DNA from: Pseudonocardiales bacterium
Lineage (GTDB): Bacteria > Actinomycetota > Actinomycetes > Mycobacteriales > Pseudonocardiaceae
Assembly: GCA_026393175.1 (NCBI GenBank)
Contig: JAPLAT010000272.1
Coordinates: forward strand, 1-35,645
DNA length: 35,645 nt
Direction of reading: 5' to 3'
Shown: in pieces, positions 1 to 34,409 of the stretch
Position numbering within the stretch: position 1 is the stretch's first letter
How the letters are laid out: each line of letters opens with the position of its first letter
Made by a program: the position numbers and the translations under genes
The notes under the pieces: generated by a model
The model's input: the letters and a program-made list of their open reading frames with translations, nothing else
The model's database searches: none
Told to the model about the DNA's origin: nothing

Positions 1-302
1 GCCCGCATCCGCTTCTTCACCGCGGTGCCGCCCTCGGCCGGGCCGGTGACGAGCCGGACGTCGCCCGCGAGCCGGCGGCGCAGCCGGGCGCCGTCCGCGT
101 CGTCGGCCAGCGCCGTGACCAGCGTGACCGCGACGCCGGACGCCGCGAGCACTGCCGCCGCCAGCCCGGCCCCGCCGGGCCGGTCCCGCTCGGCCGCGAC
201 GTCGAGCACCGGCACCGGGGCGTCCGGGCACAGCCGGTCCGCGCTGCCCTCGACGTCGACGTCGAGCAGGACGTCGCCGACGACGACCACGCTCCCGTTC
301 AC
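1..302 (-). CDS. PfkB-family sugar kinase, N-terminal part (cut by window edge)
   Basis: About 100 N-terminal residues of a ribokinase/PfkB-fold carbohydrate kinase; the rest lies outside the window. The GTG start overlaps the hldE stop codon in a GTGA junction, which implies translational coupling. Visible features are the opening beta strand with GDVLLDVDVEG (residues about 9-19), a substrate-loop sequence RPGGAGLAAAVLAASG near residues 45-60 (compare PGGAANVA in hldE), and a KKRMR stretch at the edge. The family phosphorylates sugars or sugar phosphates with ATP. Because the gene follows an intact bifunctional hldE, it is a second heptose-kinase-like gene in the same operon. Its substrate is unknown: it could act on heptose, or on another sugar of the glycan. 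Family assignment is fairly sure, role is inferred from context. Confidence 0.75.
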   Translation of the reverse strand, partial: MNGSVVVVGDVLLDVDVEGSADRLCPDAPVPVLDVAAERDRPGGAGLAAAVLAASGVAVTLVTALADDADGARLRRRLAGDVRLVTGPAEGGTAVKKRMR

Positions 303-2595: not shown

Positions 2596-2618
2596 GATCT
2601 CTCCAGGGGGGTCGGGGG

Positions 2619-4459: not shown

Positions 4460-4474
4460 GGTCACCTCCTGGTC

Positions 4475-5596
4475 TCAGACGGCGGGCCGGACGGCCCGGT
4501 GCGGTTGCGTGCGGTGCGGTGCGGCGGGATCCGGTGCGGCGTGGTCCCGTGCGTTCCGGTCCCGCGCGGTGTCGTTCCGTGCGGCGTGGACCGGGGTGCG
4601 GGGCGCGTCGGTGCGACGGGCCCCGACGGCGGTGCGCCGATCGGCCGTGACGGTTCCGAGTACCCGGTCCCAGTCGTCGAGGAACCGCTGCAGGCCGTAG
4701 CGCTGCAGGGCGTGCGCGCGGGCGGCCGCCCCTCGCCGCCGGGCCAGCGCCCGGTCGGCGACCAGCTCGGCCAGCGCGGCCCGCAGCCGGTCCGGGTCGG
4801 TGGAGCACACGCCCGCGTGCGGCGGGACGGCCTCCAGCGCCTCGGTCGAGGCGAACGCGACGACGGGCATCCCCAGGTGCATCGCCTCGAGCAGCGAGAG
4901 GCCGAGCGAGGTCCAGCGCAGCGGGTGCAGGTAGGCCCGGCGGCGGGCGAGCTCGGCGTGCATCCGCGCCTGCGGCAGGTCGCCGCACCCGCGCACGCCC
5001 GGGCCGAGGTGGGTCTCGAGGCCGTCGGTGCCCATCCCGAACACGTCCAGCGGCACGGCGGCGGCGAACCCGGGGAGCAGGTCGGTGCCCGTGACGCGGC
5101 TGCGGCGCAGCGGCTCGTTGACCACCACCGCGGCCGAGTCCAGGTCACCGCTGAACAGGTGGCCCGGGTCGACGATCCCGTGCTCGACGACGGTGGTGCG
5201 GGTCGACCCCGCGTCCCACATCACGTCGTTGAAGTGCGTGACGTGCACGATCGTCACGTCGTCGCGGTCGGCGGCCGGGTGCCGGCTCGACGCGGCGGGC
5301 CCGCGCGGGGCGTTGTGCTCCACGAACACCACGGGGACGTCGCGGCCCGGGACGCGGCGCAGCCAGCGGGCGGCCAGGTCGAACTCCTCGGGCCGCTGCA
5401 GCACGACCACGTCGACCGGCTCGTCGCCGAGGCGCTCGGGGGTCACCTCGACCGCGGAGGACGGCCACTCCCAGGCCTCCGGCCGCCCGCCGCCCCACGG
5501 GCCGCGTTCGGGCAGCACGGGCAGCAGGTAGCGGTGGGGACCCTGGACGAACGAGGTCGTCCAGGAGCCGTGGACGTGCCAGAGCAGGATGTTCAT
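4475..5596 (-). CDS. Glycosyltransferase with low-complexity C-terminal tail
   Basis: A 373-residue GT-B-like glycosyltransferase. It starts MNILLWHVHGSWTTSFVQG; the C-terminal nucleotide-sugar domain carries SLGLSLLEAMHLGMPVVAF near residues 235-255, a GT4-like EX7E region. The ATG overlaps the upstream heptosyltransferase stop (ATGA). Residues after about 320 form an Arg/His/Pro/Ala/Asp-rich tail encoded by degenerate GTGCGGT-like repeats (4490-4600), which looks like a recent repeat expansion rather than a folded domain. Donor and acceptor are unknown. Context (GT9, GT4, gmhA, hldE) suggests assembly of a heptose-containing surface glycan. Confidence 0.82.
   Translation of the reverse strand: MNILLWHVHGSWTTSFVQGPHRYLLPVLPERGPWGGGRPEAWEWPSSAVEVTPERLGDEPVDVVVLQRPEEFDLAARWLRRVPGRDVPVVFVEHNAPRGPAASSRHPAADRDDVTIVHVTHFNDVMWDAGSTRTTVVEHGIVDPGHLFSGDLDSAAVVVNEPLRRSRVTGTDLLPGFAAAVPLDVFGMGTDGLETHLGPGVRGCGDLPQARMHAELARRRAYLHPLRWTSLGLSLLEAMHLGMPVVAFASTEALEAVPPHAGVCSTDPDRLRAALAELVADRALARRRGAAARAHALQRYGLQRFLDDWDRVLGTVTADRRTAVGARRTDAPRTPVHAARNDTARDRNARDHAAPDPAAPHRTQPHRAVRPAV
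4490..4600. repeat. Degenerate GTGCGGT-type short repeats in a glycosyltransferase 3' end
   Basis: The plus strand reads as imperfect iterations of GTGCGGT, GTGCGTTCCGGT and GCGGCGTGG. On the coding (minus) strand these specify an Arg/His/Ala/Pro/Asp-rich tail of about 40 residues. The periodicity is irregular, so this is low-complexity slippage-prone DNA and not a clean tandem array. Confidence 0.55.
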
Positions 5597-6633
5597 GCGG
5601 GCACCGCCGATCGGTCGAGGGGGGTCAGGTGGTGGACGGCCGCGACCACGTCCCGCGCCGGGACGCCGGCCAGGCACGGGTGCCCGGGGACCGGGCACTC
5701 GCGGGCGCGGGTGTCGCGGCAGGCGGCCCGCTGGTCCCCCAGCAGCACGTGCCGCACGCCCTGCGGGCGCCACCGCACCGCCGGCACGACCGGCGCGAAC
5801 AGCGACACGACGGGGGTGCCGACGGCCGCGGCGAGGTGCGCGGCGCCGGTGTTGCCGGCGACGAGCGTCCCCGCCCCGGCGAGCACCCGGGCCAGCTCGG
5901 CGAACGAGGTGCGCCCGCCCAGGTCGACGCCGTCGCGGCCGGCGACGTGCGCGGTCAGGTCGCGCTCGTCCGGCCCGCCGGTGACGACGACGCGGTACCT
6001 CCGCGCGGCGAGCAGCCCGGCGGCCTCCCGGAAGTGCCCGGCGGGCCACCGGCGCGCGGTCACGGCGGCACCCGGGTGCAGCACGACGGTGCGCGGGTCG
6101 CGCTCGACCGGCGGGACGCGGACGGCGGGCGCGCCGTCGTCACCGGGCGGGAGCCGGTAGCCGGCCGCCGCGGCGATCCGCAGCGCCCGCCCGGTCTCCG
6201 GCAGGTCCTCGGGCAGGTCCTCCCCCGGCCGCAGCCGCACGTCGAGCAGCGAGCCGGGGTGGTCCACCGACGCCCCGGTGATCCGCCCGACCCCGGCAAG
6301 GCGCAGCAGCAGCGCGGTGGGCAGCGGCGACTGGTGGAAGGAGGTGAGCAGCACCGCCGCGGACAGGTCCAGGGCGCGCAGCCGGGCGACGACGTCGGCG
6401 ATGTAGTCGGGGCGCACCGGCGGGGCGGGGGTGACCACCCAGGGCGCGGTCCACTCGACGACCTCGGCCACGCCGGGCAGCAGCCGCCCGGCCGGGGCGC
6501 CCGCCGGGCCGCAGAGCAGCACGACCTCGGCGGCCGCGGCGACGGCCCGCACGGCCGGGCCGGCGAGCAGGACGTCGCCCGCGCCGTCCAGGCGCGCGAC
6601 CAGGACCCGCGGTCGCGGCGCGGGGCCGGTCAC
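5593..6633 (-). CDS. GT9 heptosyltransferase-like protein
   Basis: A 346-residue GT9-family protein (ADP-heptose:LPS heptosyltransferase fold). Motifs seen: RVLVARLDGAGDVLLAGPAVRA at the N-terminus, VLHPGAAVTARRWPAGHFRE near residue 190, VVTGGPDERDL near 225, and LVAGNTGAAHLAAAVGTPVVSLFAP near 265-290, the donor-binding segment. GT9 enzymes add ADP-activated heptose to a growing glycan, normally LPS core in Gram-negatives. Actinobacteria lack LPS, so the acceptor here must be something else. A cluster of four Cys near residues 310-325 (ACRDTRARECPVPGHPC) is also typical of the family. The GTG start overlaps the gmhB stop, and the stop overlaps the next glycosyltransferase. Confidence 0.9.
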   Translation of the reverse strand: MTGPAPRPRVLVARLDGAGDVLLAGPAVRAVAAAAEVVLLCGPAGAPAGRLLPGVAEVVEWTAPWVVTPAPPVRPDYIADVVARLRALDLSAAVLLTSFHQSPLPTALLLRLAGVGRITGASVDHPGSLLDVRLRPGEDLPEDLPETGRALRIAAAAGYRLPPGDDGAPAVRVPPVERDPRTVVLHPGAAVTARRWPAGHFREAAGLLAARRYRVVVTGGPDERDLTAHVAGRDGVDLGGRTSFAELARVLAGAGTLVAGNTGAAHLAAAVGTPVVSLFAPVVPAVRWRPQGVRHVLLGDQRAACRDTRARECPVPGHPCLAGVPARDVVAAVHHLTPLDRSAVPA

Positions 6634-7250
6634 GCGCCCACCCCGCCCCCGGCTCCCACCGGGCCGTCGGGTGCCGGGTCGTCGGGCCGGTCACCGCCGG
6701 ACAGGGCGTCGTCCGAGGTCACCCCGTCCAGGATGGCCCGGGCGGCGGCGAGCAGGTCGCGGCGCACGACCGGGGCGTCGGCGATCTCGGTGAGCTGCGT
6801 GACGGGCGTCGGCACCAGCACGGAGCGGGCCCCCGCCGCCGCGGCGGCGCCGATGTCGGCGGCGATGTCGCCGATCACGGTGACCCGCTCCGGGGGGATC
6901 CCCAGCGCGGCCGCGGCGGAGAGCACCATCCCCGGCGCCGGCTTGCGGCAGCCGCAGCCGTCCTCGGGACGGTGCGGGCAGAGCCGCCACACGTCGAACG
7001 GGCCGAGCAGTTCCTCGACCCGGGCGTTCACCGCGTCCGCCTGGTCGCGGGTGAGGAGCCCCCGCCCGATCCCGGACTGGTTGGTGACCACCCCGGTGCG
7101 CAGCCCGGCGGCCCGGAGCAGGCCCAGGGCGGCCACCGCGGTGGGCACCGGCCGCACCAGCGCGGGATCGGCGCAGTAGGGCTCGTCGACGATCAGGGTG
7201 CCGTCGCGGTCGAACAGCACCGCGGCGGTCGACCCGGGAGCGGTAGTCAC
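6630..7250 (-). CDS. gmhB: D-glycero-beta-D-manno-heptose 1,7-bisphosphate 7-phosphatase (HAD)
   Basis: HAD-superfamily phosphatase of the histidinol-phosphatase/GmhB group. Motif I is LFDRDGTL, motif II is VVTNQSG, and motif IV is VIGDIAADIGAA. The zinc-loop sequence CPHRPEDGCGCRKP is the signature of GmhB. It removes the 7-phosphate of heptose 1,7-bisphosphate between the two HldE reactions. The start is uncertain: GTG at 7250 gives 206 residues with a normal nine-residue lead-in; TTG at 7283 adds 11 residues. Neither has a clear Shine-Dalgarno sequence. The last about 28 residues are Gly/Asp/Pro-rich and beyond the usual fold. This appears to be the first gene of the minus-strand heptose operon, and it overlaps the GT9 gene by four bases. 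Confidence 0.9.
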   Translation of the reverse strand: MTTAPGSTAAVLFDRDGTLIVDEPYCADPALVRPVPTAVAALGLLRAAGLRTGVVTNQSGIGRGLLTRDQADAVNARVEELLGPFDVWRLCPHRPEDGCGCRKPAPGMVLSAAAALGIPPERVTVIGDIAADIGAAAAAGARSVLVPTPVTQLTEIADAPVVRRDLLAAARAILDGVTSDDALSGGDRPDDPAPDGPVGAGGGVGA

Positions 7251-10478: not shown

Positions 10479-11287
10479 CCGAGCAGCACGAGCACGTGCA
10501 GCAGGTAGAGCCACAGCGCCAGCGCCGCCACGGCGCCGACGACGGGCAGCCCGCCGAAGGGCAGCGACCACTCGACGGGGATCGCCAGGAACAGCAGGAA
10601 GCCCTGGAGGAACCCGGCGAGGACGGCGCCGGTGGCGAACGCGCCGAGCAGCAGCGCCCGGGGCCGCGGCGCGGCCGGGGCGACCGTGCGGAACACGATC
10701 GCGAGCGCGGCCGACACCACCACCCACACGACGTGGAAGGCGACGACGACACCCCCCACGAGCGACGCGCCGCCTGCCGCGTACAGCGGGGCGACCGTCG
10801 GCGCGGCGGCCAACAGGGCCAGCACCAGCAGCGGACCCGCCGCGACGACGGGCAGCAGCCCGATCCGGCCGCGCCACCCGGTGAGCGCGTCCGCGGCCGG
10901 CCCGGTGAGCTGCACGAACGCCCGGCGCAGCCCCTCGCCGTAGAGGCTCGCGGGGAACAGCAGCACCGCGGCCCGCCCGGCGTCGAGCCCGACGGCGACG
11001 TCGGTGAGCGTCCGCACCGCCTCCGGCGTGCCGTGGCCGCCGGGGATCCCGGACAGCACGGTGGCGACGGCGCCGACGACCCAGTCCGGCCCGGTCAGCA
11101 GCGCGGTCGCCCAGAGCGCGAGCATCACCGTCGGCACGATGCCCACGAGCCCGAAGAACGTGGCGCCGGCGGCCCACAGGGCCAGGTCGCCGGTCGGCGC
11201 CGAGCGCCCCAGCCCGCGGCCCAGGTCGCGGGCCATGGCGCGCAGCCGCGACCGGCTCCCCGCGGCCCGCGCTCGCGACCCGGTCAC
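10445..11287 (-). CDS. Divergent YihY/BrkB-like membrane protein
   Basis: A 280-residue protein with about six hydrophobic segments. The signature region reads LWAAGATFFGLVGIVPTVMLAL (compare AGGVAYFSFLALFPALVA in the neighbour), then FPASLYGEGLRRAFVQL at the position where the family has the Ala/Ser-Gly-rich loop, and ends VAALALWLYLLHVLVLLGYRLALAL. It is therefore a distant paralogue of the convergent gene. The GTG start overlaps the stop of the carotenoid desaturase-like gene (GTGA), so it is expressed with the carotenoid group. Function unknown. Confidence 0.78.
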   Translation of the reverse strand: MTGSRARAAGSRSRLRAMARDLGRGLGRSAPTGDLALWAAGATFFGLVGIVPTVMLALWATALLTGPDWVVGAVATVLSGIPGGHGTPEAVRTLTDVAVGLDAGRAAVLLFPASLYGEGLRRAFVQLTGPAADALTGWRGRIGLLPVVAAGPLLVLALLAAAPTVAPLYAAGGASLVGGVVVAFHVVWVVVSAALAIVFRTVAPAAPRPRALLLGAFATGAVLAGFLQGFLLFLAIPVEWSLPFGGLPVVGAVAALALWLYLLHVLVLLGYRLALALDAL

Positions 11288-12780
11288 CGCGGCCCGCCGG
11301 TCGCCGACCCGACCTGCTCGGCGACGATCGCCGCCGACAGCACCACCAGCGGCAGCCCGCCACCGGGGTGCGCCGACCCGCCGACGAGGTGCAGGCCCGG
11401 CACGGCCGAGCGGTTGGCGGGGCGGAGCAGGGCGGCGGCCGGGCCGTGCGAGGCCGTGCCGTAGATCGACCCGCCGGGGGACGCCGTCTCGCGCTCGAGA
11501 TCGGCGGGGGTGCGGATCTCCCGCCAGCGCACCCGGTGCCGGACGTCGGTGCCGCGCGCGGCGAGCGTCGCGAGCACGTGGTCGGCGTAGCGCTCGCGCA
11601 GGCCGGGGTCGGCCCAGTCCACGCCGCGACCCGGGGCGTGCGGCGGGGCGTTGACCGGCACGAACCAGCCCTCGGACGCGTCGTCGGGGCGCATCGCGGG
11701 GTCGTCGGGGGCGTGCACGTAGACCGTCGGGTCGGCCACCGGCGCGGGGCGGCGGCCGAGCACGGCGTCGAACTCGGCGTCGTAGTCGGCGGGGAACCAG
11801 ACCCGGTGCGCCGGGCCGGGTTCCCGCCCGTCCAGCGCCAGCAGGAGCGCGAAGCCCGACAGCGACGGGCGCCGCCGGGCGAGCACCCGGCGGGCGCGGC
11901 GGGCCGCGCGCCCGCGCAGCAGGCGGCCGTAGAGGACCGCGGCGTCGGCGTCGCAGACGACCACGTCGGCGGGGACGTCGTGGGAGCCGCCGCGCCCGGC
12001 CAGCCGCACCCCCGACACCCGCCCGCCCGCGGTCCGCACCTCGACGACCTCGGACCCCAGGTGCACCCGCACCCCGAGGTCGACGGCGCGGCGCAGCAGG
12101 GCGTCGGCGATCCCGCGCAGCCCGCCGCGGACGTACCAGGCCCCGAAGTGCTGCTCGACGAAGGGGGTCACCGACAGCACCGAGGGCGTGCGGCGCGGGT
12201 CGGAGCCGGAGTAGGTGGCGTAGCGGTCGAGCCAGGTCCGCAGCCGCGGGTCGGCGAACGCGGCGCGGCCCAGCCCGCGCAGGGTCGTCCACGGCGCGAC
12301 CAGCCGCAGGTCGGCCACCCGCCGGGAGAAGCGCAGCAGGTCACGGGCCCCGTCGAGCGGGCGGCGCAGCACGTCGTCCCCGACGAGGTCCCACAGCCGG
12401 GCCGAGCGGGCGTGGAGCACCGACCAGGCGGCGCCCGCGCCGTGCCCGAGGGCCGCGTCCAGTGCCGCGGGCACGGCGGCCGGGTCGTGCGGGACGTCGA
12501 GCACGGTCCCGTCGGCGAAGCGGTAGCGGCAGGCCGGGTCGACGGGCACGAGATCGGGCCCGGGCCCGCCGGTGTCGGCGAACAGCTCCTCGAGCACGCG
12601 GGGCATCGTGAGCAGCGACGGCCCGGTGTCGAAGGTGAACCCGTCGCGGCGGAACGTGCCGAGCTTGCCGCCGTGCGTGGCCGCGCGTTCGTGCAGGTCC
12701 ACGTCGTGGCCCTGCGCGGCGAGCCGCGCGGCCACGGCGAGCCCGCCGACGCCCGCCCCGACGACCACCACCCGACTCAC
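11284..12780 (-). CDS. CrtI/CrtD-type carotenoid desaturase-like FAD oxidoreductase
   Basis: A 498-residue FAD-dependent amine-oxidase-fold protein of the phytoene desaturase family. The N-terminal dinucleotide motif is VVVGAGVGGLAVAARLAAQGHDVDLHE, then GGKLGTFRRDGFTFDTGPSLLTMP, which is diagnostic for CrtI-type enzymes. The C-terminal family motif is LHLVGGSAHPGGGLPLVVLSA. Enzymes of this group desaturate or isomerise carotenes; next to a CruF-like hydratase and a GT2 the best fit is a CrtD-like 3,4-desaturase. The substrate is inferred. The GTG start overlaps the GT2 stop, and the stop overlaps the YihY-like gene. Confidence 0.85.
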   Translation of the reverse strand: MSRVVVVGAGVGGLAVAARLAAQGHDVDLHERAATHGGKLGTFRRDGFTFDTGPSLLTMPRVLEELFADTGGPGPDLVPVDPACRYRFADGTVLDVPHDPAAVPAALDAALGHGAGAAWSVLHARSARLWDLVGDDVLRRPLDGARDLLRFSRRVADLRLVAPWTTLRGLGRAAFADPRLRTWLDRYATYSGSDPRRTPSVLSVTPFVEQHFGAWYVRGGLRGIADALLRRAVDLGVRVHLGSEVVEVRTAGGRVSGVRLAGRGGSHDVPADVVVCDADAAVLYGRLLRGRAARRARRVLARRRPSLSGFALLLALDGREPGPAHRVWFPADYDAEFDAVLGRRPAPVADPTVYVHAPDDPAMRPDDASEGWFVPVNAPPHAPGRGVDWADPGLRERYADHVLATLAARGTDVRHRVRWREIRTPADLERETASPGGSIYGTASHGPAAALLRPANRSAVPGLHLVGGSAHPGGGLPLVVLSAAIVAEQVGSATGGPR

Positions 12781-13967
12781 GGGCGGCCCCCGGGCAGCCG
12801 CCTGCCCTTCCAGGTCAGGGTGCCGCGGCGGTGCCCGGCCCAGGACCGTGCGAGCAGGCCCAGCAGCGCGGCCACCGACAGCGGGTGCGCCCACGCGTCC
12901 GGCCAGGCCGGCGTGCCGGTGCGGCGGGCGCTGACCACGCGGCTCAGCACGGCGGCCAGGTAGCCCACGGCGCCCGCGGCCGAGCCGCGCACGGCGGCGG
13001 CCGGGGGCACCAGGTAGGCCAGGGCGAGCAGCGCGGCCACGGCGACCGACCCGCCCGGCCCGCCGAAGGCCGACCACAGCGACTTGCCGTACCCGGCCAC
13101 GAGCTCGGCCCCGCCGTCGTACATCCGGCAGGCCGCGAGCGAGGACCCGTCGGCCAGCCCGACCCGCCCGCCGGAGCGCTTCACCGCGCGGGCCAGCGCG
13201 ATGTCGTCGAGGACCGCGCCGGCGACGGCGGCGAAGCCGCCCGCCCGGTGCAGCGCCGCGGGGTCGACGAGCAGGAACTGCCCGTTGGCGGCCGCGAGCG
13301 CGGGCCGCGGGGACCGCTCCGCGCGGCGCAGCGGCAGCAGCACCGACCACGACCACACCTGCAGGGGCTGGACCAGGCGCGGCAGCGGGCCCGCGGCCAG
13401 CTGGCGCGGCCAGGGGCAGAGCAGGTCCAGCGGCGCGCGGCCGGTCCGCCCGCGCAGCAGCGCCACCGCCGCGGCGACGGCGTGCGGGGCCAGCACGACG
13501 TCGGCGTCGACTAACACCAGCACGTCGCCGCGGGCCGCTGCCGCGAGCTGCGCGCAGGCGTGCGGCTTGCCCGGGACCCCGTCGGCGGGCGGGCGGCCGG
13601 TGAGCACGCGGAGCCGGGGGTCGCCGCCCGCGGCGGCGCGCACCCGGTCCGCCGTGCCGTCGGTCGAGCCGTCGTCGAGCACGAGGACCTCGACGTCGGC
13701 CAGGCCGGTCTGCGCGAGCAGCGACCGCACGGTCGGGGCGATCCGGTGCGCCTCGTCGCGGGCCGGCACGAGCAGCGAGACCGGCTCCGCCACCGCGGGC
13801 GGGACGGCGGGCGGGGTGCGCAGCGCGCGCAGGTTGACCAGCTGGTGCGCCGCGCCGAGGACGGCGAGGGCGGCCCCGGACCGGACGGCACCGGCCCCGA
13901 GGGAGCGGGCACGGCGGGACGGGGCACGGGCCGGGCGGGGGCGGACGGCCGGGGTCGGGCGCTTCAT
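12777..13967 (-). CDS. GT2 glycosyltransferase, CruG/CrtQ-like
   Basis: A 396-residue membrane-anchored GT2 enzyme. It has a basic N-terminus, a hydrophobic helix near residues 30-50, then VSLLVPARDEAHRI, VLVLDDGSTDGTADR and LVDADVVL (DxD). ANGQFLLVDPAALHRAGGF and a DDIALARAVKRSGG motif follow; three C-terminal helices end the protein. This arrangement is that of carotenoid glycosyltransferases CruG and CrtQ and of related hopanoid enzymes. It sits between cruF-like and desaturase-like genes, so glycosylation of a hydroxylated carotenoid is the best inference. A TACGCT hexamer eight bases before the ATG, without a Shine-Dalgarno sequence, suggests a leaderless start. Confidence 0.82.
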   Translation of the reverse strand: MKRPTPAVRPRPARAPSRRARSLGAGAVRSGAALAVLGAAHQLVNLRALRTPPAVPPAVAEPVSLLVPARDEAHRIAPTVRSLLAQTGLADVEVLVLDDGSTDGTADRVRAAAGGDPRLRVLTGRPPADGVPGKPHACAQLAAAARGDVLVLVDADVVLAPHAVAAAVALLRGRTGRAPLDLLCPWPRQLAAGPLPRLVQPLQVWSWSVLLPLRRAERSPRPALAAANGQFLLVDPAALHRAGGFAAVAGAVLDDIALARAVKRSGGRVGLADGSSLAACRMYDGGAELVAGYGKSLWSAFGGPGGSVAVAALLALAYLVPPAAAVRGSAAGAVGYLAAVLSRVVSARRTGTPAWPDAWAHPLSVAALLGLLARSWAGHRRGTLTWKGRRLPGGRP

Positions 13968-15009: not shown

Positions 15010-15689
15010 TCGTCCGTGTGCACCGGCACGGTGACCCCGGGCCCGATCAGCTCGACGAGGTCGGTGCCCTGCCGCCCGTCCATCGTCACCAGTACGCCGA
15101 GCACGCGGGTGCCGCCCAGGTGCGCCACCATCACGTCGATCCCGGGGAACCGGTCGCGCACCTCCCGCAGCCAGGGCCGGCACAGCGTGTCCCCGGTGAC
15201 GTAGACGCGCAGCACCCGCCGGCCGTCCCGCTCGAGGTCGAGCACGCTCCCCATGACCGGCGGCAGCGCGCGGTGCACCACGGCCGGGCCGTGGCGGCCG
15301 GGCACCGCGGTGACGCGGAGGGTCTCCCCGCCGCGGGTCGCCTCCCACGTCTCCCAGGTCGGCAGCCCGGTCGCGGCGCGGGAACCCCGGCGGCGCAGGG
15401 CGCGGGCGGCGTGGCGGGTGGTCACGACGGGCAGGTCCGGCGGCAGCCAGCGCCGCGCCACCCGGTCGAAGTGGTCCCCGTGCAGGTGCGAGAGCAGCAC
15501 CGCGTCCAGGGGCGGGAGGTCGTCGGGCAGCAGCGCGGGTTCGGTCCGGCGCCGGGACACCAGGCCGTAGCCCAGGTGGACCCGCTGCCCGCGGTGCAGG
15601 AAGTTGGGGTCGGTCAGCAGCGTGAAGCCGCCCAGCCGCAGCAGGCAGGTGGCGGTGCCGCCGAAGGTGAGCGAGCCGGGCGCGGTCAC
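14886..15689 (-). CDS. Metallo-beta-lactamase-fold hydrolase, UlaG-like
   Basis: A 267-residue MBL-fold metal-dependent hydrolase. The fold begins LTFGGTATCLLRLGGFTLLTDPNF. The zinc motif is LLSHLHGDHFD (HxHxDH) near residue 66-76, with further ligands in GRHGPAV, VTGDTL and VPVHTDDY. It resembles the UlaG/NAPE-PLD branch, whose members hydrolyse phosphodiesters or lactones; substrate unknown. The GTG start overlaps the stop of the GT9 gene, so they form an operon. Its 3' 124 bases overlap the 3' end of the CruF-like gene on the opposite strand. Confidence 0.87.
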   Translation of the reverse strand: MTAPGSLTFGGTATCLLRLGGFTLLTDPNFLHRGQRVHLGYGLVSRRRTEPALLPDDLPPLDAVLLSHLHGDHFDRVARRWLPPDLPVVTTRHAARALRRRGSRAATGLPTWETWEATRGGETLRVTAVPGRHGPAVVHRALPPVMGSVLDLERDGRRVLRVYVTGDTLCRPWLREVRDRFPGIDVMVAHLGGTRVLGVLVTMDGRQGTDLVELIGPGVTVPVHTDDYTVFRSPLSDFVAEMAARGLTDRLRVVERGGTVALGDAPS

Positions 15690-16687
15690 GGCGCACCCGC
15701 GCCGCAGGTCCGCAGCGTCCCCGGGGACCCGGCGGGACCGCCCGGCGGGTGCAGGAGGGCGTCCGCGGCGCCCAGCACCTCACCCACCGGCACCCCCAGC
15801 AGGGCCGGGTCGGGATCGTCGGCGAACGGGTCGCCGCGCCGGTCGCCCGCGGCCGTCAGCACGCGGTGCGGGCCGGCCGTGGGCGGTCCCCACCGCGACG
15901 GCGGGACCGGGCCGAACAGGACTACCGACGGCGTCCCCAGCGCGGAGGCCACGTGCGCGATCCCGGTGTCCCCGCACACGACGAGGTCCGCCGCGGCGAC
16001 CAGCGCGCAGAGCTCGGGCAGCGACGTCGCCCCGGCGAGGACGGCCGTGTCGTCCAGCCCGGCGCGCCGGGCGACGTCCGCGGCCAGCGGCCGTTCCGGC
16101 GCCGACCCGGTGACCCGCACCCGGCGGCCGGCCCGGGCGAGGGTCGCGGCCACCTCCGCGAAGCGGGCCGGCGGCCACCGCTTCGCCCCGTACCGGGCGC
16201 CGGGGTGCACGAGCACCCCGCCGGGCCCCGCACCCGGGTCCGGCGGGTCGATGCGCAGGTCGGCGGGGTCGGCGGGCACCCCGTGCGCGGCCACCATCGC
16301 GCACCAGCGCTCCCGCTCGTGGACGCGGTCGTCGTCGTCCCACGCCGGGCCGTCCCAGCCGGGCGCGGCGAACCCGATCCGGACGCGCGGGCCGGTGCGG
16401 TCCAGGGCCGCGTGGCTCTGCGGGCCCGCGCCGTGCAGGTTCACGGCGACCTCGGGCGCCGGGCCGGGCCAGCGCAGGTCGTCCGGGGTGTCGGTGGGCA
16501 GCAGCGCGTCGACCGCGCCGGTGAGCGCGGCCAGCGGGCCCAGCGCCGCCGGCGCGGCGAGCACGAGCCGGTGGTCGGGCCGCGCCCGCCGCAGCGCCCG
16601 CAGCGCCGGGACGGCCACGAGCAGGTCCCCCAGGTGCAGGGCCCGCAGGACGAGCTGTGTCGGGCGGCGATCGGCGGAGGGCGGCAC
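15686..16687 (-). CDS. GT9-family glycosyltransferase (heptosyltransferase-like)
   Basis: A 333-residue GT9 protein, second of this family in the window. The N-terminus reads QLVLRALHLGDLLVAVPALRAL. LVHPGARYGAKRWPPARFAEVA near residue 155-175 and LVVCGDTGIAHVASALGTPSVVLFGPVPPSRWGPP near 240-275 are the family donor-binding segments. The GTG at 16687 is nine bases after GGGTAT on the minus strand and has no clear Shine-Dalgarno sequence. Longer versions of the frame run into the divergent P450 coding strand and are not real. Donor and acceptor unknown; a link to the ADP-heptose operon 8 kb away is plausible but unproven. Confidence 0.85.
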   Translation of the reverse strand: MPPSADRRPTQLVLRALHLGDLLVAVPALRALRRARPDHRLVLAAPAALGPLAALTGAVDALLPTDTPDDLRWPGPAPEVAVNLHGAGPQSHAALDRTGPRVRIGFAAPGWDGPAWDDDDRVHERERWCAMVAAHGVPADPADLRIDPPDPGAGPGGVLVHPGARYGAKRWPPARFAEVAATLARAGRRVRVTGSAPERPLAADVARRAGLDDTAVLAGATSLPELCALVAAADLVVCGDTGIAHVASALGTPSVVLFGPVPPSRWGPPTAGPHRVLTAAGDRRGDPFADDPDPALLGVPVGEVLGAADALLHPPGGPAGSPGTLRTCGAGAP

Positions 16688-19308: not shown

Positions 19309-20037
19309 GTGGGTGTGCAGATCCTGGTGGTGGACCGGCGGCCGCTGCTGCGCAGGGGGCTGGAGGCATTGCTGCCCCCGGTGAGCGACGGGCGGTTGCG
19401 GGTGGTCGCCGGCACGCACCTCGCCGGCGCCGCGGCCGAGCTGGTGCGCAGGCACGCGCCGGACCTGGTGCTGGTCGATCTGGGGCTCGAACATCCCGGC
19501 GGGGTGCGCGCGGTGGCCGCCGCGCTGCGGGTCGACCCGCGCACGGCCGTGCTCGCGATGGCGGCGGGCCGGGCCGAGGACGACGACGCGCTCGCCGAGG
19601 AGGCGCTGGCGGCCGGGGCGCGGGGCGTGCTGGACCCGGTGCTCGAGCCCGAGGAGCTGGTCACGCCGCTGCTGGCCGCCGCCGAGGGGTGGGCGGTCCT
19701 GCCACCGCGCCTGCTGCGCCGGATGTCCGCCGCCCGCTCCCGACCCGACGGCCCGGGGGCGCTGCTCGACGCGCAGCAGCGGCGGCTGTGGACGCTCATC
19801 GCCGACGGGGCGGGCACCCGGCGGATCGCCGCCGAGCTCCACGTCTCCGACCGCACCGTGAAGCGGTTGACGGCGACGCTGCTGCGGCGCCTGGGCGTCG
19901 CCAGCCGCACCGAGGCCGCGGCACTCGCCGGCCGGCAGGGGCTCGGTGCTGGCCCCGGGGGGCCAGCACCGGCACCGGGGGGCCGCGCACCGGGGCACCC
20001 GGAGGAGGGCGGCGAGCGCCGCCGACCGAGCACCTGA
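19309..20037 (+). CDS. NarL/LuxR-type response regulator with degenerate receiver
   Basis: A 242-residue protein with an N-terminal receiver-like domain (1-120) and a C-terminal LuxR HTH (about 150-210; GAGTRRIAAELHVSDRTVKRL then LGVASRTEAAALA). The phosphoacceptor Asp57 (LVLVDLG) and one N-terminal acid (D9) remain. The second acid is Arg10, the switch Ser/Thr is Ala (VLAMAAG), and the conserved Lys is missing (GVLDPVLEPEEL). Phosphorylation-independent control is therefore likely. The 30-residue Gly/Pro tail covers a 26-base hairpin. No histidine kinase is adjacent. The manganese catalase starts 12 bases downstream, so autoregulation or control of that gene is plausible. A GCGT-N15-GGGCAC sequence ends nine bases before the GTG. 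Confidence 0.83.
   Translation: MGVQILVVDRRPLLRRGLEALLPPVSDGRLRVVAGTHLAGAAAELVRRHAPDLVLVDLGLEHPGGVRAVAAALRVDPRTAVLAMAAGRAEDDDALAEEALAAGARGVLDPVLEPEELVTPLLAAAEGWAVLPPRLLRRMSAARSRPDGPGALLDAQQRRLWTLIADGAGTRRIAAELHVSDRTVKRLTATLLRRLGVASRTEAAALAGRQGLGAGPGGPAPAPGGRAPGHPEEGGERRRPST
19945..19970. repeat. 26-base perfect inverted repeat inside the regulator's 3' end
   Basis: Two 12-base arms, left beginning GGTGCTGGCC, separated by two bases; the GC-rich hairpin would form in the mRNA about 80 bases before the catalase start. It could attenuate or stabilise the regulator-catalase transcript; this is inference. No T-tract follows. Confidence 0.5.
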
Positions 20038-20049
20038 CGAGAGGGCGCG

Positions 20050-20901
20050 ATGTTCTACCACACGCAGAACCTGCAGTTCGAGGCCAAGCCCGACGCCCCC
20101 GACCCCGCGTTCGCCCGCCGCTTCCAGGAGGTCCTGGGGGGCAAGTGGGGCGAGATGACCGTCGCGAACCAGTACCTCTACCAGGGCTGGAACTGCCGGC
20201 TGCCCGGCAAGTACAAGGACATGCTGATGGCCATCGGCACCGAGGAGATGGCCCACGTCGAGCTGATCTGCACCATGATCGCCCGGCTGCTCGACGGCGC
20301 GCCGCTGTCCGCCCAGGAGGCCGCCGTGGACGGCAACCCGGCGACCGCAGCGGTGTTCGGCGGCAGCAACCCGCAACACGCCATCGTCACCGGTGGGGGC
20401 GCGTACCCCGTCGACAGCAACGGCATCCCGTGGTCGGGCGCGTTCATCACCGCCAGCGGCAACCTGCACGCCGACTTCCATCTCAACGCCACGGCGGAGA
20501 TGCAGGGCAGGCTGCAGGTCGCGCGGCTGTGGAACATGACCGAGGACCCGGGGGTGAAGGACACGCTGCGCTTCCTGCTCGCCCGCGACCACTACCACCA
20601 GCAGCAGTGGCTGCGCGCGATCCAGGACCTGGAGGCCGAGGGCCTGGACAAGCTGCCCGTGCCCGACGCGTTCGACGTCGACCAGGAGTCCCCCGTGCGC
20701 GACGCCGCCTACCAGTTCATCGACTGCTCGGACGGCGACCAGGCGGGCGCGGGGAGCTGGGTGGACACCGAGGCCCTCGACGGCAGCGGCCGGACCCTGT
20801 CCTACGTCAAGGGCACGCCGTCCGGCGACAAGCCGATCCTGCCGCCGGGCGACCCGCGGCTGTACGGCACTCCCCCGCCCGACATGGCCCCGAAGGCCTG
20901 A
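20050..20901 (+). CDS. Manganese catalase
   Basis: A 283-residue non-heme catalase that dismutates hydrogen peroxide with a dinuclear manganese centre. The four-helix ferritin-like bundle carries the ligands: Glu in WGEMTVANQYLYQ (about residue 36), GTEEMAHVELI (Glu66/His69 region), NATAEMQGRLQVARL (Glu near 154) and LARDHYHQQQW (His near 184-187). The start MFYHTQNLQFEAKPDAPDP is typical of the family, and length is normal. ATG at 20050 has GAGAGG upstream. Likely co-transcribed with the regulator 12 bases upstream, and followed by a strong hairpin. Confidence 0.95.
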   Translation: MFYHTQNLQFEAKPDAPDPAFARRFQEVLGGKWGEMTVANQYLYQGWNCRLPGKYKDMLMAIGTEEMAHVELICTMIARLLDGAPLSAQEAAVDGNPATAAVFGGSNPQHAIVTGGGAYPVDSNGIPWSGAFITASGNLHADFHLNATAEMQGRLQVARLWNMTEDPGVKDTLRFLLARDHYHQQQWLRAIQDLEAEGLDKLPVPDAFDVDQESPVRDAAYQFIDCSDGDQAGAGSWVDTEALDGSGRTLSYVKGTPSGDKPILPPGDPRLYGTPPPDMAPKA

Positions 20902-20942
20902 CCCGCCGGGATGCCCCCGGGTCCGGACGAGCCGGACCCCAC

Positions 20943-20984
20943 CCGCGACGGCCCCGGCGTCCCGCGACGCCGGGGCCGTCGCGG
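20943..20984 (+). terminator. Strong hairpin after the manganese catalase
   Basis: A perfect 19-base-pair stem (20943-20961 with 20966-20984) and CCGC loop, 42 bases after the catalase stop. No T-tract follows, as is common for high-GC actinobacterial terminators. Confidence 0.75.
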
Positions 20985-21023
20985 TCACCCCATGACCGTC
21001 CGCCCCCCACCACGGAGGACACC

Positions 21024-22577
21024 GTGCCCCTGACCTACCCGACCCGGCCCGGCGACGTCGACCGGCTGATCGCCGACGACCACGCCGTCGTCGAACGGCA
21101 GTTCCAGCACCTGGAGGCGCAGCGCGGCGACCGTCGCACGCTGGTCGACCAGGTGGCCTTCGAGCTGGCGCTGCACGCGGACGCCGAGGAGCGGACCCTC
21201 TACCCCGCCATGCGGGCCGTGGGTGACGACGAGGGCGCCCGGCACGCGCGCGGCGAGCACCAGGAGGTGAAGGAGCTCCTCGCCGTCCTGCAGAAGGGGC
21301 AGCCGGGCGAGGCCGGGTTCGAGGAGTCGCTGACCCGGCTCATCGCGGCGGTGCGCGAGCACGTCGTCGAGGAGGAGGGGGTGCACCTGCCGCGCTTCCG
21401 CAGCAAGGCGGGGCCGGACCGGATGACCGAGCTCGGCGAGGAGTTCCTCGCCGCGAAGCGGGCCGCCCCCACCTACGCCCATCCGAACGCCCCGGCGAGC
21501 CGGACCGGTCACCAGCTGCTCGACGCCGGAGCCAAGGCCGTCGACGCCGTCCGCGACAAGGTGTCCGGCCGGGGCAGGCGCCTGGCCACCGACGCGTCGG
21601 GCCTGCTCGACCCGCAGGCGCAGCGCGTCGTCGACGCCTTCGCCGGGCTGGAGCCGCAGCCGCTGGAGATCCTCGAGCCCGACCAGGCCCGTCACCAGCC
21701 CACGCCGGTGGACGCGGTGGCCGCGATCCTGGCCGAGGACGGCCGCTCGACCGATCCCGAGCCGGTCGACGAGGTCCAGGACCTGGTCATCGACACCGAG
21801 GGCGGGCCGCTGCGGGCCCGCGTGTACCGGCCGGCCGGCGTCGACCGCGACGTCCCGGCCCCGGTCGTCATGTGGATCCACGGCGGCGGGTGGGTGCTCT
21901 ACGACGTCGACACCTACGACGCGTCGTGCCGCGGGGTCGCGAACCGCACCGGGGCGATCGTGGTCTCCCCCGAGTACCGGCGCGCGCCCGAGCACGTGTT
22001 CCCGGCCGCGCACGACGACGTGCTCGCCGCCTGGCGCTGGATGCGGGAGAACGCCGCCGGGCTGGGTGGGGACCCGGCGCGCCTGGCCGTCGGCGGCGAG
22101 TCGGTGGGCGGGAACATGGCCGCGGCGACCTGCCTGGCCCTGCAGGCCGCGGGCGAGCCGCTGCCCGCCGCCCAGGTCCTGGTCTACCCGCTGACGACGG
22201 GCCGCCAGCTGGGCGAGTCGATGGTGGACGCGGCCGACGCCCGTCCCCTCAACCGGCCGCTGCTGTCCTGGATGGCGATGCACGCGTTCCGGGGCGTGCC
22301 CGAGGCCGCGAAGGACCAGCGCGTGGACCTGCTCGCCGTGCCGGCCGACCGGCTCGCCGGGCTCCCGCCGACGCTCGTCATCACGGGCGAGCGTGACGTC
22401 CTGCGCAGCCAGGGTGAGGAGTTCGCCCGGCACCTGGAGGCCGCCGGGGTGGCGACCACGGCCACCTGTTACGAGGGCGTCATGCACGAGTTCTTCGGCG
22501 CCGCCGCCGTGCTGGACAAGGCGGCGCAGGCCCAGCAGCAGGCCGCGGACCACCTGCGGGCCGCGTTCGCCGCGTGA
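21024..22577 (+). CDS. Hemerythrin domain fused to an HSL-family esterase
   Basis: A 517-residue two-domain protein. Residues about 11-150 form a hemerythrin (HHE) domain with candidate iron ligands His20, His51, Glu55, His79, His113 and Glu117. A charged linker of about 70 residues follows. From about 215 to 517 is an alpha/beta hydrolase of the hormone-sensitive-lipase/acetyl-esterase type: oxyanion motif HGGGW at 286-290, nucleophile Ser360 in GESVGG, Asp458 in GERDVL, His488 in VMHEFF. All catalytic residues are present. The GTG has GGAGG with a 5-base spacer. Hemerythrin domains bind O2, NO or peroxide through a di-iron site, so the esterase may be redox- or gas-controlled; that is inference. 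There is no stop or frame change between the domains. Confidence 0.9.
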   Translation: MPLTYPTRPGDVDRLIADDHAVVERQFQHLEAQRGDRRTLVDQVAFELALHADAEERTLYPAMRAVGDDEGARHARGEHQEVKELLAVLQKGQPGEAGFEESLTRLIAAVREHVVEEEGVHLPRFRSKAGPDRMTELGEEFLAAKRAAPTYAHPNAPASRTGHQLLDAGAKAVDAVRDKVSGRGRRLATDASGLLDPQAQRVVDAFAGLEPQPLEILEPDQARHQPTPVDAVAAILAEDGRSTDPEPVDEVQDLVIDTEGGPLRARVYRPAGVDRDVPAPVVMWIHGGGWVLYDVDTYDASCRGVANRTGAIVVSPEYRRAPEHVFPAAHDDVLAAWRWMRENAAGLGGDPARLAVGGESVGGNMAAATCLALQAAGEPLPAAQVLVYPLTTGRQLGESMVDAADARPLNRPLLSWMAMHAFRGVPEAAKDQRVDLLAVPADRLAGLPPTLVITGERDVLRSQGEEFARHLEAAGVATTATCYEGVMHEFFGAAAVLDKAAQAQQQAADHLRAAFAA

Positions 22578-30730: not shown

Positions 30731-33292
30731 CTACCCCGTCCGCGGCGACTCCACCCCCGTGACGGGCACACCGAGCAGTGCCTCCACGCCGGTGAGCGCG
30801 AGGATCCGGGCGACCGCGCCACCCGGCTCCAGGCACGCGTCGACCGGGAGGCCGCGCGCCCTGGCCCGCTCCACGGCGTCCAGGAGGAGCGCGACCCCGG
30901 CGCTGGCCACGTAGGCGGTGGCGGTCAGGTCGAGCACGATCCGCGTGCCGGGCGGGGCGTCGGCGACCGCGGCCCGCACCCGGTCGCCGATCGCGCCCGC
31001 GCCCGCGAGGTCGATCTCCCCGTCGATCGCCAGTCGCCGCTCGCCCCGCGCCTCGGTGACGGTGACGTCCGCCGGCACCGGCGTGCCCGCCCCGCCCGCG
31101 CGGCGGGCCGGCACGGGCACGCCCGGGGGCGCGGGCGGCACCCGGAACCCGACGCGGGTCCCGTCCGCACCTGCGGCCACGTCGACGTCGGTGCCGATCG
31201 CCCGGATCACCTCCAGGCCCCGGCCGCGGAAACCCGGGTCGGGCGGGGCGGGCCGCCAGGAGCCGGAGTCGGCCACCTGCACCTGCACCGCCCCGTCGGC
31301 GCGCCGCGTGAGCCCGACGGCGACCTCCCCGCGGGGCCGCTCGCGGTAGGCGTGCTCGATCGCGTTCGCGACGGCCTCCCCGAGCGCGAACTGCAGGTCG
31401 TCGGCCTGGTCGGCGTCGAGTCCGGTCGCGAACGCCCACCGCTCGACGGCCCGGCGCATCCGCCGCAGCTCCTCGGCCCGGGCCGGCACGGCGCCCCGCC
31501 ACGGCGGGGGCAGGAGGCGGGTGACGACGAGCGCGACGTCGTCGGCCGGGTCGACGTCGTCCAGCAGCGCGCGGAGCAGCGCGTCGGCCAGCCGGGCGGG
31601 CGGCTGTGCCGCCTCCCGGGCCCCGGCGGCGGCCAGCCGGGCCAGCCCCTCGTCGAGCCGCTCCCCCCGGCGCTCGACGAGCCCGTCGGTGTAGATCACC
31701 AGCGTGTCGCCGGGGGCCAGCGTGCACGCGTGCTCGGGGAAGGCCGACGGCCGTGCACCGCTCAGGCCCAGCACCGGCCCGAGCGCGCCCTCCAGCGGCG
31801 CCCCCGTCTCCCCCTCCAGCACGACCGGCGGCGGGTGGCCCGCGCTCGCCCAGCGCACCCTGCCGGACTCGCGGTCCAGCAGGAGGCACGCGGCGGTGGA
31901 GGCGCGGGCGGCCGGCACCCGCGCGCAGAAGCGGTCGAGCTGGCCCAGCGCGGCGGCCGGGCCGTCGCCGCGCAGCAGGGCGACCGCGAGCGCGGTGCGC
32001 AGCCGGCCCATCAGCGCCGCCGCCGCGGGGCCCTTCCCGACCACGTCCCCCACGACCAGCGCGACGGACGTGGCGTCGAGCTCGATCACGTCGTACCAGT
32101 CGCCGCCCGCCTGCGACCCGTCCGCGCCGGGCAGGTACCGCGCCGCCAGCGCCAGCCGGTCGAGCTCGGGCAGCCGCTCCGGGAGGAGGCTCCGCTGCAG
32201 GGTGTCGGCGATCTCGTGCTCGACCTGCTGCAGGCGCGCGCGGTCGAGCGCCTGCGCGCACTGCGCCGCCAGCGTGAGCACCGACTGCCGCCGGCCGGGC
32301 GACCAGTGCGGCGGGTCGCCCGCGAAACCCATGCCGACCGCACCCACGGCCCGGTCGTCGAGGACCATCGGCACGGCCACGTCGACGTCGGGGGCCGACG
32401 GGGACCCGCTGAAGCTGCGCTCGCGCCAGGCCAGCTCCGAGCGGCGCGCCAGCCACACCGGCTCCCCGGTCCGCACGGCGTGCGCGAGCGGGTGCGCCGC
32501 GTCGGCGGGCAGTGCCGCCGGACCCGGCGCGGCCGCGGGGTCGCCCAGTAGGTCGAGGTCGGGGCCCGGACCGCGGACCGCCACGACGAACGAGGTCGCG
32601 CCGAGCTCCCGCGCGGCGGCGGCGATCGCGGCGACCACCTGGTCCGGGGTGCGGGCCCGGGACAGGGCCGCGACCATCGCGGTCAGCTGCTCCGCGCTCT
32701 GCCGGGCGTCGCTCTCGACCTGCAGCAGCCGCGCGCGCTGCAGCGCCTGGGCGCACTGGTCCCCCAGCGAGACGACCGCCGCGCGCTCGTCGGCGTCGAG
32801 CTCGCGGTCGTCGAGGAAGCCGATCCCGACCGCGCCGATCAGCTCGCCCCCGGCGACCAGCGGGAGCCCGAGGACGCCCCGGTAGCCGTAGTCGTCGAGC
32901 ATCCCGACCAGGTGCGGGTAGCGGGTGCGCCACGCGGCGGGGCTCTCGGTCCACACCGGTCCCCGGTGCCTGGCGGCCTCGGCGACGGGCGCCGGGGCGT
33001 CCAGCGGCATGGTCGTCCAGGCGTCCCGGGCCCCCTGGACCCAGCCGCCGAGGGTCATGGCGTCGAGGCTGTCGGCCCCCCTCAGCTCGAACACCGCGAC
33101 CGAGGTGGTGCCCAGCAGCCGCCCGAAGTGCTCGACGGCGGTGTCGACGACCGCGCCCGGCGTGGCCGCGGCCGACAGCGCGGCGGCGGCGTCGGTCAGC
33201 AGGCGCAGCCGGTCGAGCTGGCGCCGCAGCTCGCCGACGTCGTCGGGTGCGGTGCCGTCGTCCGGGACGGGCGGGGACGGGGACGGGTGCAC
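30731..33292 (-). CDS. GAF-GAF-PP2C(SpoIIE)-HATPase-STAS multidomain stress regulator
   Basis: An 853-residue soluble protein with five modules. GAF1 (about 35-170) and GAF2 (about 190-345) share VGDQCAQAL/LAAQCAQALDRARL-type ends. A PP2C/SpoIIE phosphatase (about 360-590) keeps its metal acids in GGDWYD, VGDVVGKG, YTDG and PADDVALV. A GHKL/RsbW-type ATPase (about 600-720) has QFALGEAVANAIEHAY (N-box) and GRGLEVI. A STAS domain (about 745-845) has a candidate phosphorylatable Ser in YVASAG near 797. These are the phosphatase, anti-sigma kinase and anti-anti-sigma parts of a SigB/SigF partner switch, fused. GTG at 33292 has GGGAGG eight bases upstream. It is 55 bases after topoisomerase IB. 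Confidence 0.9.
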   Translation of the reverse strand: MHPSPSPPVPDDGTAPDDVGELRRQLDRLRLLTDAAAALSAAATPGAVVDTAVEHFGRLLGTTSVAVFELRGADSLDAMTLGGWVQGARDAWTTMPLDAPAPVAEAARHRGPVWTESPAAWRTRYPHLVGMLDDYGYRGVLGLPLVAGGELIGAVGIGFLDDRELDADERAAVVSLGDQCAQALQRARLLQVESDARQSAEQLTAMVAALSRARTPDQVVAAIAAAARELGATSFVVAVRGPGPDLDLLGDPAAAPGPAALPADAAHPLAHAVRTGEPVWLARRSELAWRERSFSGSPSAPDVDVAVPMVLDDRAVGAVGMGFAGDPPHWSPGRRQSVLTLAAQCAQALDRARLQQVEHEIADTLQRSLLPERLPELDRLALAARYLPGADGSQAGGDWYDVIELDATSVALVVGDVVGKGPAAAALMGRLRTALAVALLRGDGPAAALGQLDRFCARVPAARASTAACLLLDRESGRVRWASAGHPPPVVLEGETGAPLEGALGPVLGLSGARPSAFPEHACTLAPGDTLVIYTDGLVERRGERLDEGLARLAAAGAREAAQPPARLADALLRALLDDVDPADDVALVVTRLLPPPWRGAVPARAEELRRMRRAVERWAFATGLDADQADDLQFALGEAVANAIEHAYRERPRGEVAVGLTRRADGAVQVQVADSGSWRPAPPDPGFRGRGLEVIRAIGTDVDVAAGADGTRVGFRVPPAPPGVPVPARRAGGAGTPVPADVTVTEARGERRLAIDGEIDLAGAGAIGDRVRAAVADAPPGTRIVLDLTATAYVASAGVALLLDAVERARARGLPVDACLEPGGAVARILALTGVEALLGVPVTGVESPRTG

Positions 33293-33347: not shown

Positions 33348-34409
33348 TCACGCCTGCTCGAGCAGGCGCACGACGGCGCGGTCGAGCACCGCCCGGCCGG
33401 CGTCGTCGGACGGGTCGAGCGGCCCGGCCCGGCGCAGCGCCCGCAGGATCGTCGCGCCCTCGGTGAAGCGCTCGACCACCCGCGGGTCCACGTACGACGC
33501 CCGGGCGACGGTCGGGGTGTTGCCCAGGTGCTCGGACACCGTCCGCACCGCCTCGTTGACCATCCGCTTGCGGGCGCGCTCCGAGGTGGGGACACCGCCG
33601 TTCTCCGCGGCCGCGGCGGCGAGCGTCACCGCCCCGAGCACGGTGGCGTTCCAGGTGCGCAGGTCCTTGCAGGTGTACTGCTCCCCCGCCAGCTCCTTGA
33701 CCCCGGCGTTGAGGTCCTCGGCGCGGACGTCGTGCCAGTCCCGCCGGACGCGGTAGGCCAGCAGGTCCTCCCCGCCGCCGCGGCGGCGCAGCAGCCCGCC
33801 GACGAACCGGTGCAGCACCGGGTCGCGCAGCGCCACGGTCCGCTCGATCGCGCCCTTGGCCAGGTAGCACACCTCCACCGCGCCGCGGCGCAGCCGGACG
33901 TGCTCGCGGCGCAGCGTGGCCAGGCCGAAGGTGCCCTCGTCCTCGTCGTCCCCGCCACCGGGGGCGTACTCCTCGCCGCCCGCGCGGAACACCCCGACGT
34001 CGAGCATCCGCACCCCGCCGGCCAGCACCCGGTCGCGCCCCAGCCCGCGCTCGCCGAGACGCCGCGCGACCTCCGCGCGCACCGCGGGCATCCGCTCGCC
34101 CAGCGTCAGCACGCGGTCGTACTTCGCCACGGACCGGTGCCGGTTCCACTCGTCGTGGTAGCGGTACTGGCGCCGGCCCGCCGCGTCGGTGCCGACGGCC
34201 TGGATGTGCCCGGCCGGGTCGGGGCAGATCCACACCTCGCGCCAGGCCGGCGGGATCACCAGCGCGCGGCAGCGGGCCACCCCGTCCGGAGCGGTCAGGG
34301 TCGCGCCGTTCTCGTCCAGGTACCCGAAACCACGGCCGCGACCGCGGCGCGACCACCCCGGACCGGCCGGGTCGCTGCGCACGAGCCCGGCGGGCATGTC
34401 GTCGTCCAC
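33348..34409 (-). CDS. DNA topoisomerase IB
   Basis: A 353-residue type IB topoisomerase of the bacterial/poxviral size class. It relaxes supercoils through a 3'-phosphotyrosine link. The N-terminal domain reads RGRGFGYLDENG and IPPAWREVWICPDPAGHIQAVG. The catalytic domain has RHRSVAKYDRVL, YTCKDLRTWNATV and LGNTPTVARASYVDPRVV with the nucleophile Tyr306. A short Gly/Asp/Glu-rich insertion (GGGDDEDEG) lies near residue 150-158. The GTG is nine bases after GGGTAC and has no Shine-Dalgarno sequence. Likely first gene of the operon with the multidomain regulator and pncC. Confidence 0.94.
   Translation of the reverse strand: MDDDMPAGLVRSDPAGPGWSRRGRGRGFGYLDENGATLTAPDGVARCRALVIPPAWREVWICPDPAGHIQAVGTDAAGRRQYRYHDEWNRHRSVAKYDRVLTLGERMPAVRAEVARRLGERGLGRDRVLAGGVRMLDVGVFRAGGEEYAPGGGDDEDEGTFGLATLRREHVRLRRGAVEVCYLAKGAIERTVALRDPVLHRFVGGLLRRRGGGEDLLAYRVRRDWHDVRAEDLNAGVKELAGEQYTCKDLRTWNATVLGAVTLAAAAAENGGVPTSERARKRMVNEAVRTVSEHLGNTPTVARASYVDPRVVERFTEGATILRALRRAGPLDPSDDAGRAVLDRAVVRLLEQA

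Follow-up and report, generated by a model that had tools for sequence, protein, structure and literature searches.

A conserved actinobacterial fusion of a hemerythrin-like HHE protein with an HSL-type carboxylesterase, a possible bifunctional detoxification enzyme

One gene in a 35,645-nucleotide stretch of DNA from a Pseudonocardiales bacterium (contig JAPLAT010000272.1; hereafter the window, meaning the whole stretch analysed) encodes a hemerythrin-like HHE protein and a complete HSL-type carboxylesterase in a single chain, and the same fusion recurs in other actinobacterial genomes. Our preferred reading, to which we give an even chance, is that the protein is a bifunctional actinobacterial detoxification enzyme for ester and peroxide.

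The reading frame extends over 517 codons from the GTG at 21024 to the stop ending at 22577 without an internal stop. PF01814 (Hemerythrin/HHE) is matched at residues 14–124 (E 5e-13, 50 bits, above the cutoff of 25.3) and PF07859 (Abhydrolase_3) at residues 282–491 (E 1e-63, 214.9 bits, above the cutoff of 25), so that the original prediction of an unbroken frame from HHE domain to esterase was correct, with exact coordinates and both domains in this one frame. The G+C content at the three codon positions is 0.82/0.49/0.97, as in high-GC coding DNA, and this profile together with homology places the gene on the plus strand. A minus-strand gene was rejected; the interval is open on that strand too, as often happens in high-GC DNA. 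A longer open reading frame in the same frame, 19689–22577, was also discarded, because its 5′ extension overlaps the Mn-catalase gene, which is read in a different frame, and the homologues start at the equivalent of 21024. When 13 members of one fusion alignment were searched with Pfam at E 0.001, PF07859 was detected in all 13 and the HHE domain in 9. The features of the gene are collected in Table 1.

Table 1. Features of the fusion gene and its upstream region in the window (fractions refer to the 60 aligned fusions)
Feature	Position	Strand	Basis or conservation
Mn-catalase gene, directly upstream of the fusion	20050..20901	+	
Perfect 16-bp inverted repeat with 4-nt loop, between Mn-catalase gene and fusion	20946..20981	.	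read by eye
GGAGG, probable ribosome-binding site, 5 nt ahead of GTG	21014..21018	+	sequence
HHE-esterase fusion gene, 517 aa, GTG start, TGA stop	21024..22577	+	
HHE helical domain, residues 1-147 (Pfam 14-124)	21024..21464	+	
His20, ligand candidate, helix 1	21081..21083	+	His in 57/60
His51-Glu55 (HxxxE), ligand candidates, helix 2	21174..21188	+	57/60 and 54/60
His79, ligand candidate, helix 3	21258..21260	+	54/60
His113-Glu117 (HxxxE), ligand candidates, helix 4	21360..21374	+	57/60 and 55/60
C-terminal tail, residues 148-186, APTxxHPxAP...VDxxRDxxSGR, resembling stand-alone HHE proteins	21465..21581	+	
Joint LATDASGLL, residues 187-195	21582..21608	+	
HSL-type carboxylesterase including N-terminal cap region, residues 196-517	21609..22574	+	
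Ser360, nucleophile in GGESVGG	22101..22103	+	Ser 53/60, Gly 7/60
Asp458, triad acid	22395..22397	+	invariant in aligned rows
His488, triad base	22485..22487	+	invariant in aligned rows

The source assembly is fragmented (712 contigs, 90.45% complete, 5.66% contamination), which speaks for an assembly or frameshift error as the maker of the fusion. Other genomes speak against it. A scan of the genome contigs of an 84,980-species collection with an N-terminal alignment of the fusion family found 61 loci, 55 of which have one frame through both domains (open frames of 516–544 codons), while five are interrupted in frame and one runs off its contig. The same joint is seen in 55 of these 61 loci of other records, and end-to-end matches (starting at residue 8 or earlier and ending at residue 513 or later) occur in at least 13 of 150 genomes of the order, the window included; among the matches listed, two further genomes of the order have partial matches (L021, and L022 at a contig end). 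These continuous homologues refute the artefact, which we regard as having practically no chance of being the explanation. The same domain order is thus found in other genomes, and the worry attached to the original prediction, that homologues might always be split, was not borne out.

The fusion occurs in Pseudonocardia, Micromonospora, Spirilliplanes, Paractinoplanes, Plantactinospora, Blastococcus, Modestobacter, Geodermatophilus, Nocardioides, Streptomyces, Kocuria, Kineococcus and Promicromonospora, as well as in MAGs. It is nevertheless rare: in a phylum-wide sample, a model of the HHE domain and joint matched 66 of 396 genomes, and only the window's match extends beyond residue 194. Unrelated fusions would escape the scan, because its two patterns derive from this fusion family. 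Among plasmids, 1093 records matched, with no fusion among the matches listed; a single record, from Sphingopyxis, spans 80% or more of the query, with 30% identity, and is annotated as alpha/beta hydrolase and TonB receptor. At G137:C396:8170-8769, two adjoining pieces share 66–70% identity with the esterase part and may represent a fusion that has decayed or been interrupted.

We compared 60 fusion sequences, namely the window, the 55 scan loci, L014 and L018–L020, in which two Kocuria rows are identical and from which L012, a duplicate of L071, was dropped. T189, D190 and L195 of the joint are present in all 60 and S192 in 59. Upstream of the joint, the tail of stand-alone HHE proteins, APTRPHP.AP...VDRxRDxxSGRG, corresponds to residues 148–186 of the fusion (as read in 8 of the 30 HHE rows). 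Downstream of it, an M-x-LDP start aligns at about residue 194 in 11 of 21 stand-alone esterase loci, the others being different or unclear. Because the limits of the fused parts are those of the stand-alone genes, the fusion most likely arose by the joining of two entire genes. The 60 fusions lie on one side of a branch both in the esterase tree (78 rows, including 18 stand-alone enzymes; L002, L005 and L031 left out; SH-aLRT 99) and in the HHE tree (90 rows, including 30 stand-alone proteins; SH-aLRT 95). Both are quick trees in which the program flagged long branches. A single origin of the fusion would be the simplest reading of these sequences.

HSL-type esterases are recognized by an HGGG oxyanion motif, a GxSxG serine, and the Asp and His of the triad. 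The set is complete in the window copy, with HGGG at residues 286–289, and the predicted intact triad of Ser360, Asp458 and His488 is there, with its residue numbers right. The protein scored below the NCBIfam equivalog cutoffs of two families, the LipP1 family (NF058653; 260.1 against 350) and chloramphenicol hydrolase (NF033149; 183.7 against 500). The fusions carry GES at the nucleophile, whereas the 14 stand-alone esterase relatives compared carry GDS (L002–L006, L008 and L031 left out for poor or doubtful gene ends or distance). AlphaFold2 with the 60-row alignment gave a whole-chain model with a mean pLDDT of 94.6 and a pTM of 0.93, a confidence that suggests a defined arrangement of the predicted domains. 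Residues 191–516 of the model align with Est8 (4ypv) at Z 44.2 and rmsd 2.1 over 312 residues. The HHE module joins the esterase directly before helix 197–208, which we take to be, as in HSL enzymes, part of the N-terminal cap above the active site.

For the metal site, the original prediction counted six to seven ligands, and six candidates are recognizable (Table 1); the seventh is absent, the canonical HxxxH partner being Lys83. Lys occupies position 83 in 58 of the 60 fusions, and Glu occupies position 118 in 56. In the available part of PMC9388753, the ligand motif of sensor hemerythrins is H-HxxxE-HxxxH-HxxxxD. The fusions do not carry this O2-sensor motif as given there, their third pair being H79/K83 and their last acid E117/E118. 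The best sequence match of the HHE module among solved structures, and the sole one at E ≤ 1, is the hemerythrin-like protein (HLP) of M. kansasii (6q09; phmmer E 4.7e-7). Since esterases took up the Foldseek and VIA-align matches of the full-length model, residues 1–189 were modelled separately (pLDDT 91.8), and the predicted fold is a helical bundle of the PF01814 kind. Its top fold match is again 6q09 (Z 14.6, rmsd 3.5, 153 aligned), followed by 3cax (Z 12.4) and FBXL5 (10.6), with de novo helical bundles at Z 10.8 and below; a best Z of about 14 also arises for helical models that have no true relative, and the Foldseek E value against 6q09 is a weak 0.011.

Weak catalase and high-affinity NO-peroxidase activities are reported for the M. 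kansasii protein (Mka HLP) in the accessible text of PMC8913304, where its ligands are four His, two Glu and one Tyr, a pattern that the authors hold to be unique to mycobacterial HLPs. MsmHr is described in the part of PMC4295536 at hand as spectrally di-iron and as affecting the response to H2O2. By analogy, the ligand set and the likeness to HLP and MsmHr would favour peroxide or NO chemistry over O2 sensing. Residues 15–146 also scored 41.5 against the PA2171 ribosome-binding persister protein family (NF053874), below the equivalog cutoff of 190.

Both sites are complete in 46 of the 60 fusions. The HHE ligands are incomplete in seven, counting L080 in which only E55 is missing, Ser360 is replaced by Gly in seven, and no copy is defective at both sites, which is an observation on few and related rows and not a test. 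All six ligands are present in 53 fusions, including the seven Ser-to-Gly copies. Parsimony on the full-length tree places three changes for loss of the HHE site and one for loss of the serine. Because the HHE ligands have been lost in some lineages and the catalytic serine in one, coupling between the sites is no condition for retention of the gene. The Ser-to-Gly copies belong to Micromonospora, Plantactinospora and one further genome of the Micromonospora family; their HGGG, Asp and His are intact, and the copies hardly differ from one another (dS 0 to 0.14). Both of their domains have an elevated dN/dS (esterase 0.13–0.61 in the pairs that differ, HHE 0.18–1.72), a figure resting on few changes at such low divergence, compared with 0.07–0.19 (esterase) and 0.08–0.30 (HHE) in eight intact pairs. 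Relaxed constraint and a recent spread of these copies are likely. The near-identical copies across Micromonospora species and Plantactinospora (L084, L085, L088, L090, L091, L097 and L014) have partly different flanking genes (flanks of L014 excluded), and the spread is therefore suggested to have been horizontal.

Five residues of the HHE domain, P9, D13, R25, H29 and G35, are each found in 58 or more of the 60 fusions, including all of the six rows that are clearly poor in ligands, and in only 0–3 of 28 stand-alone HHE proteins (L007 and L125 left out). These fusion-specific residues and the invariant joint suggest, at the level of sequence, that a specific contact between the domains may be selected even without iron. 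Such a contact fits equally well with the HHE domain as a scaffold, as a gate or as one half of a bifunctional enzyme.

No fixed operon surrounds the fusions when genes are called with our own codon-usage gene caller. A Zn-dehydrogenase gene lies near 22 of 56 readable fusion loci and 2 of 40 control stretches (Fisher p 9e-5), a p value that overstates independence because the loci are related (Blastococcus supplies 11 of the 22) and the controls were not genus-matched. The 56 loci are the 55 continuous ones and the window, with L014 and L018–L020 left out for their short flanks, and the controls are 40 chosen stretches of 17.5 kb from 11 genomes of the order. The dehydrogenase lies within three genes of the fusion in 20 loci; in 8 it is the next gene downstream, on the strand of the fusion. 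Because the member tested scored 347 bits, under the cutoff of 637 for glutathione-independent formaldehyde dehydrogenase, we call it only formaldehyde dehydrogenase-like. An MRJP-family gene (PF03022) lies directly downstream in 16 of 56 loci, overlapping the fusion by 4 bases in 14; none of the 40 controls contains such a gene. The window copy has neither neighbour; it is followed downstream by a Clp-type ATPase gene. A conserved operon with the Mn-catalase gene was considered and rejected, as a gene of the same cluster was found among the called neighbours of only one other locus (L076, five genes upstream). The inverted repeat at 20946–20981, which has no T run, is possibly a terminator or a processing hairpin. 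Of 62 upstream stretches scanned for a SigB/SigF-like promoter motif, 4 carry it, compared with 1.2% of random and 1.9% of shuffled stretches. This is a slight excess, and the motif is absent upstream of the window fusion.

Elsewhere in the window, on the minus strand, genes resembling HldE, phosphoheptose isomerase, GmhB and heptosyltransferase (ADP-heptose type) lie at 299–7220 and 15686–16687, with matches mostly below the curated cutoffs, although an actinobacterium should have no LPS. Also on the minus strand, a carotenoid-desaturase-like gene adjoins an HpnB/CruG-like glycosyltransferase gene (11284–13967), and a GAF-SpoIIE-ATPase-STAS protein adjoins a bacterial topoisomerase IB (30731–33292 and 33348–34409).

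As a bifunctional detoxification enzyme, the protein would have arisen, most simply once, from two complete proteins, a stand-alone actinobacterial HLP-like HHE protein and an HSL carboxylesterase, with the fixed TDASGLL joint leading into the capped N-terminus of the latter. The esterase would cleave esters with small or medium acyl groups, the HHE site would bind two irons and consume peroxide (or NO plus peroxide) instead of sensing O2, and in many relatives the neighbouring Zn-dehydrogenase would handle the released alcohols or aldehydes. The two modules would be docked, and either chemistry could be lost alone. The domains and their sites, the HLP likeness, the equal limits of fused and stand-alone genes, the majority of copies with both sites complete and the metabolic neighbours argue for this scheme. 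On the other side of an evenly balanced case are the window copy, which lacks both recurrent neighbours, the 14 of 60 fusions with one site incomplete, the weak Foldseek E value, the Tyr-containing ligand pattern, which the Mka HLP authors regard as unique to mycobacterial HLPs, and the HHE domain's detection by Pfam in only 9 of 13 members.

The original prediction saw in the fusion a gas or redox switch of ester hydrolysis, in which the state of the di-iron site (O2, NO or peroxide) would move the attached cap and open or close the esterase. Its structural core stands: HHE domain and HSL esterase are conserved in one chain, the HHE module leads into helix 197–208 at the esterase N-terminus, the whole-chain model is confident, and the fusion-specific residues suggest a specific domain contact. 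The switch itself did not hold up as well. The canonical sensor motif (HxxxH, HxxxxD) is not present, fusions are retained with incomplete HHE ligands or without the serine, and the recurrent neighbours are enzymes; we consider gating by the di-iron site unlikely. A purely structural use, in which the HHE bundle would dock, fold or oligomerize the esterase and the metal site would be a relic, agrees with the retention of the HHE region and its fusion-specific residues despite ligand loss, and with an HHE dN/dS of 0.11 to 0.33 in four ligand-poor pairs. A relic would not explain why six ligands persist in most fusions and in every Ser-to-Gly copy, and we rate this use as quite improbable. Similarly doubtful is a mixed scheme in which peroxide or NO chemistry in an HHE domain seated on the esterase cap would gate the active site, with the Ser-to-Gly clade as a pure sensor or binder. 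The bifunctional enzyme remains the reading that we prefer.

Both domains are well known, and the fusion is assembled from known parts. The HHE-esterase pairing was not found described in the literature searched (titles and the starts of abstracts of the papers listed); the list of 56 architectures that belongs to PMC4919030 may include it. With its exact joint, most simply one origin, and lineages that have lost one site or the other, the fusion is a natural setting in which to ask whether an HHE domain regulates its partner enzyme, assists it or only props it up. If gating were true, it would be a di-iron-gated carboxylesterase, for which the ligand-poor HHE and Ser-to-Gly relatives would be ready-made controls.

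Among known systems, the esterase half resembles Est8 in fold and sequence and is similar to the HSL-type carboxylesterases LAE6, EH1AB1 and EstDL136, but all four are stand-alone enzymes; likewise, the stand-alone HHE proteins of Streptomyces size lack an esterase. Mka HLP (PDB 6q09), the Rv2633c homologue, has four His and two Glu in its reported ligand set, as do the ligand candidates of the fusion HHE domain, and one of its Tyr residues aligns with Tyr60 (present in 57 of 60 fusions); it is a monomer without another fused domain according to the accessible text of PMC8913304, whereas the window HHE domain carries an esterase. The HxxxEE motifs of MsmHr (MSMEG_2415) are comparable to H51xxxEE and H113xxxEE of the fusion, but MsmHr has no esterase and is reported to repress SigF expression (PMC4295536, available part). 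Bhr-DGC, Bhr-HD-GYP and DcrH likewise combine an HHE domain and an output domain in one chain (PMC9388753); in contrast to the fusion, they have the seven-ligand motif and signalling outputs, and are not esterases.
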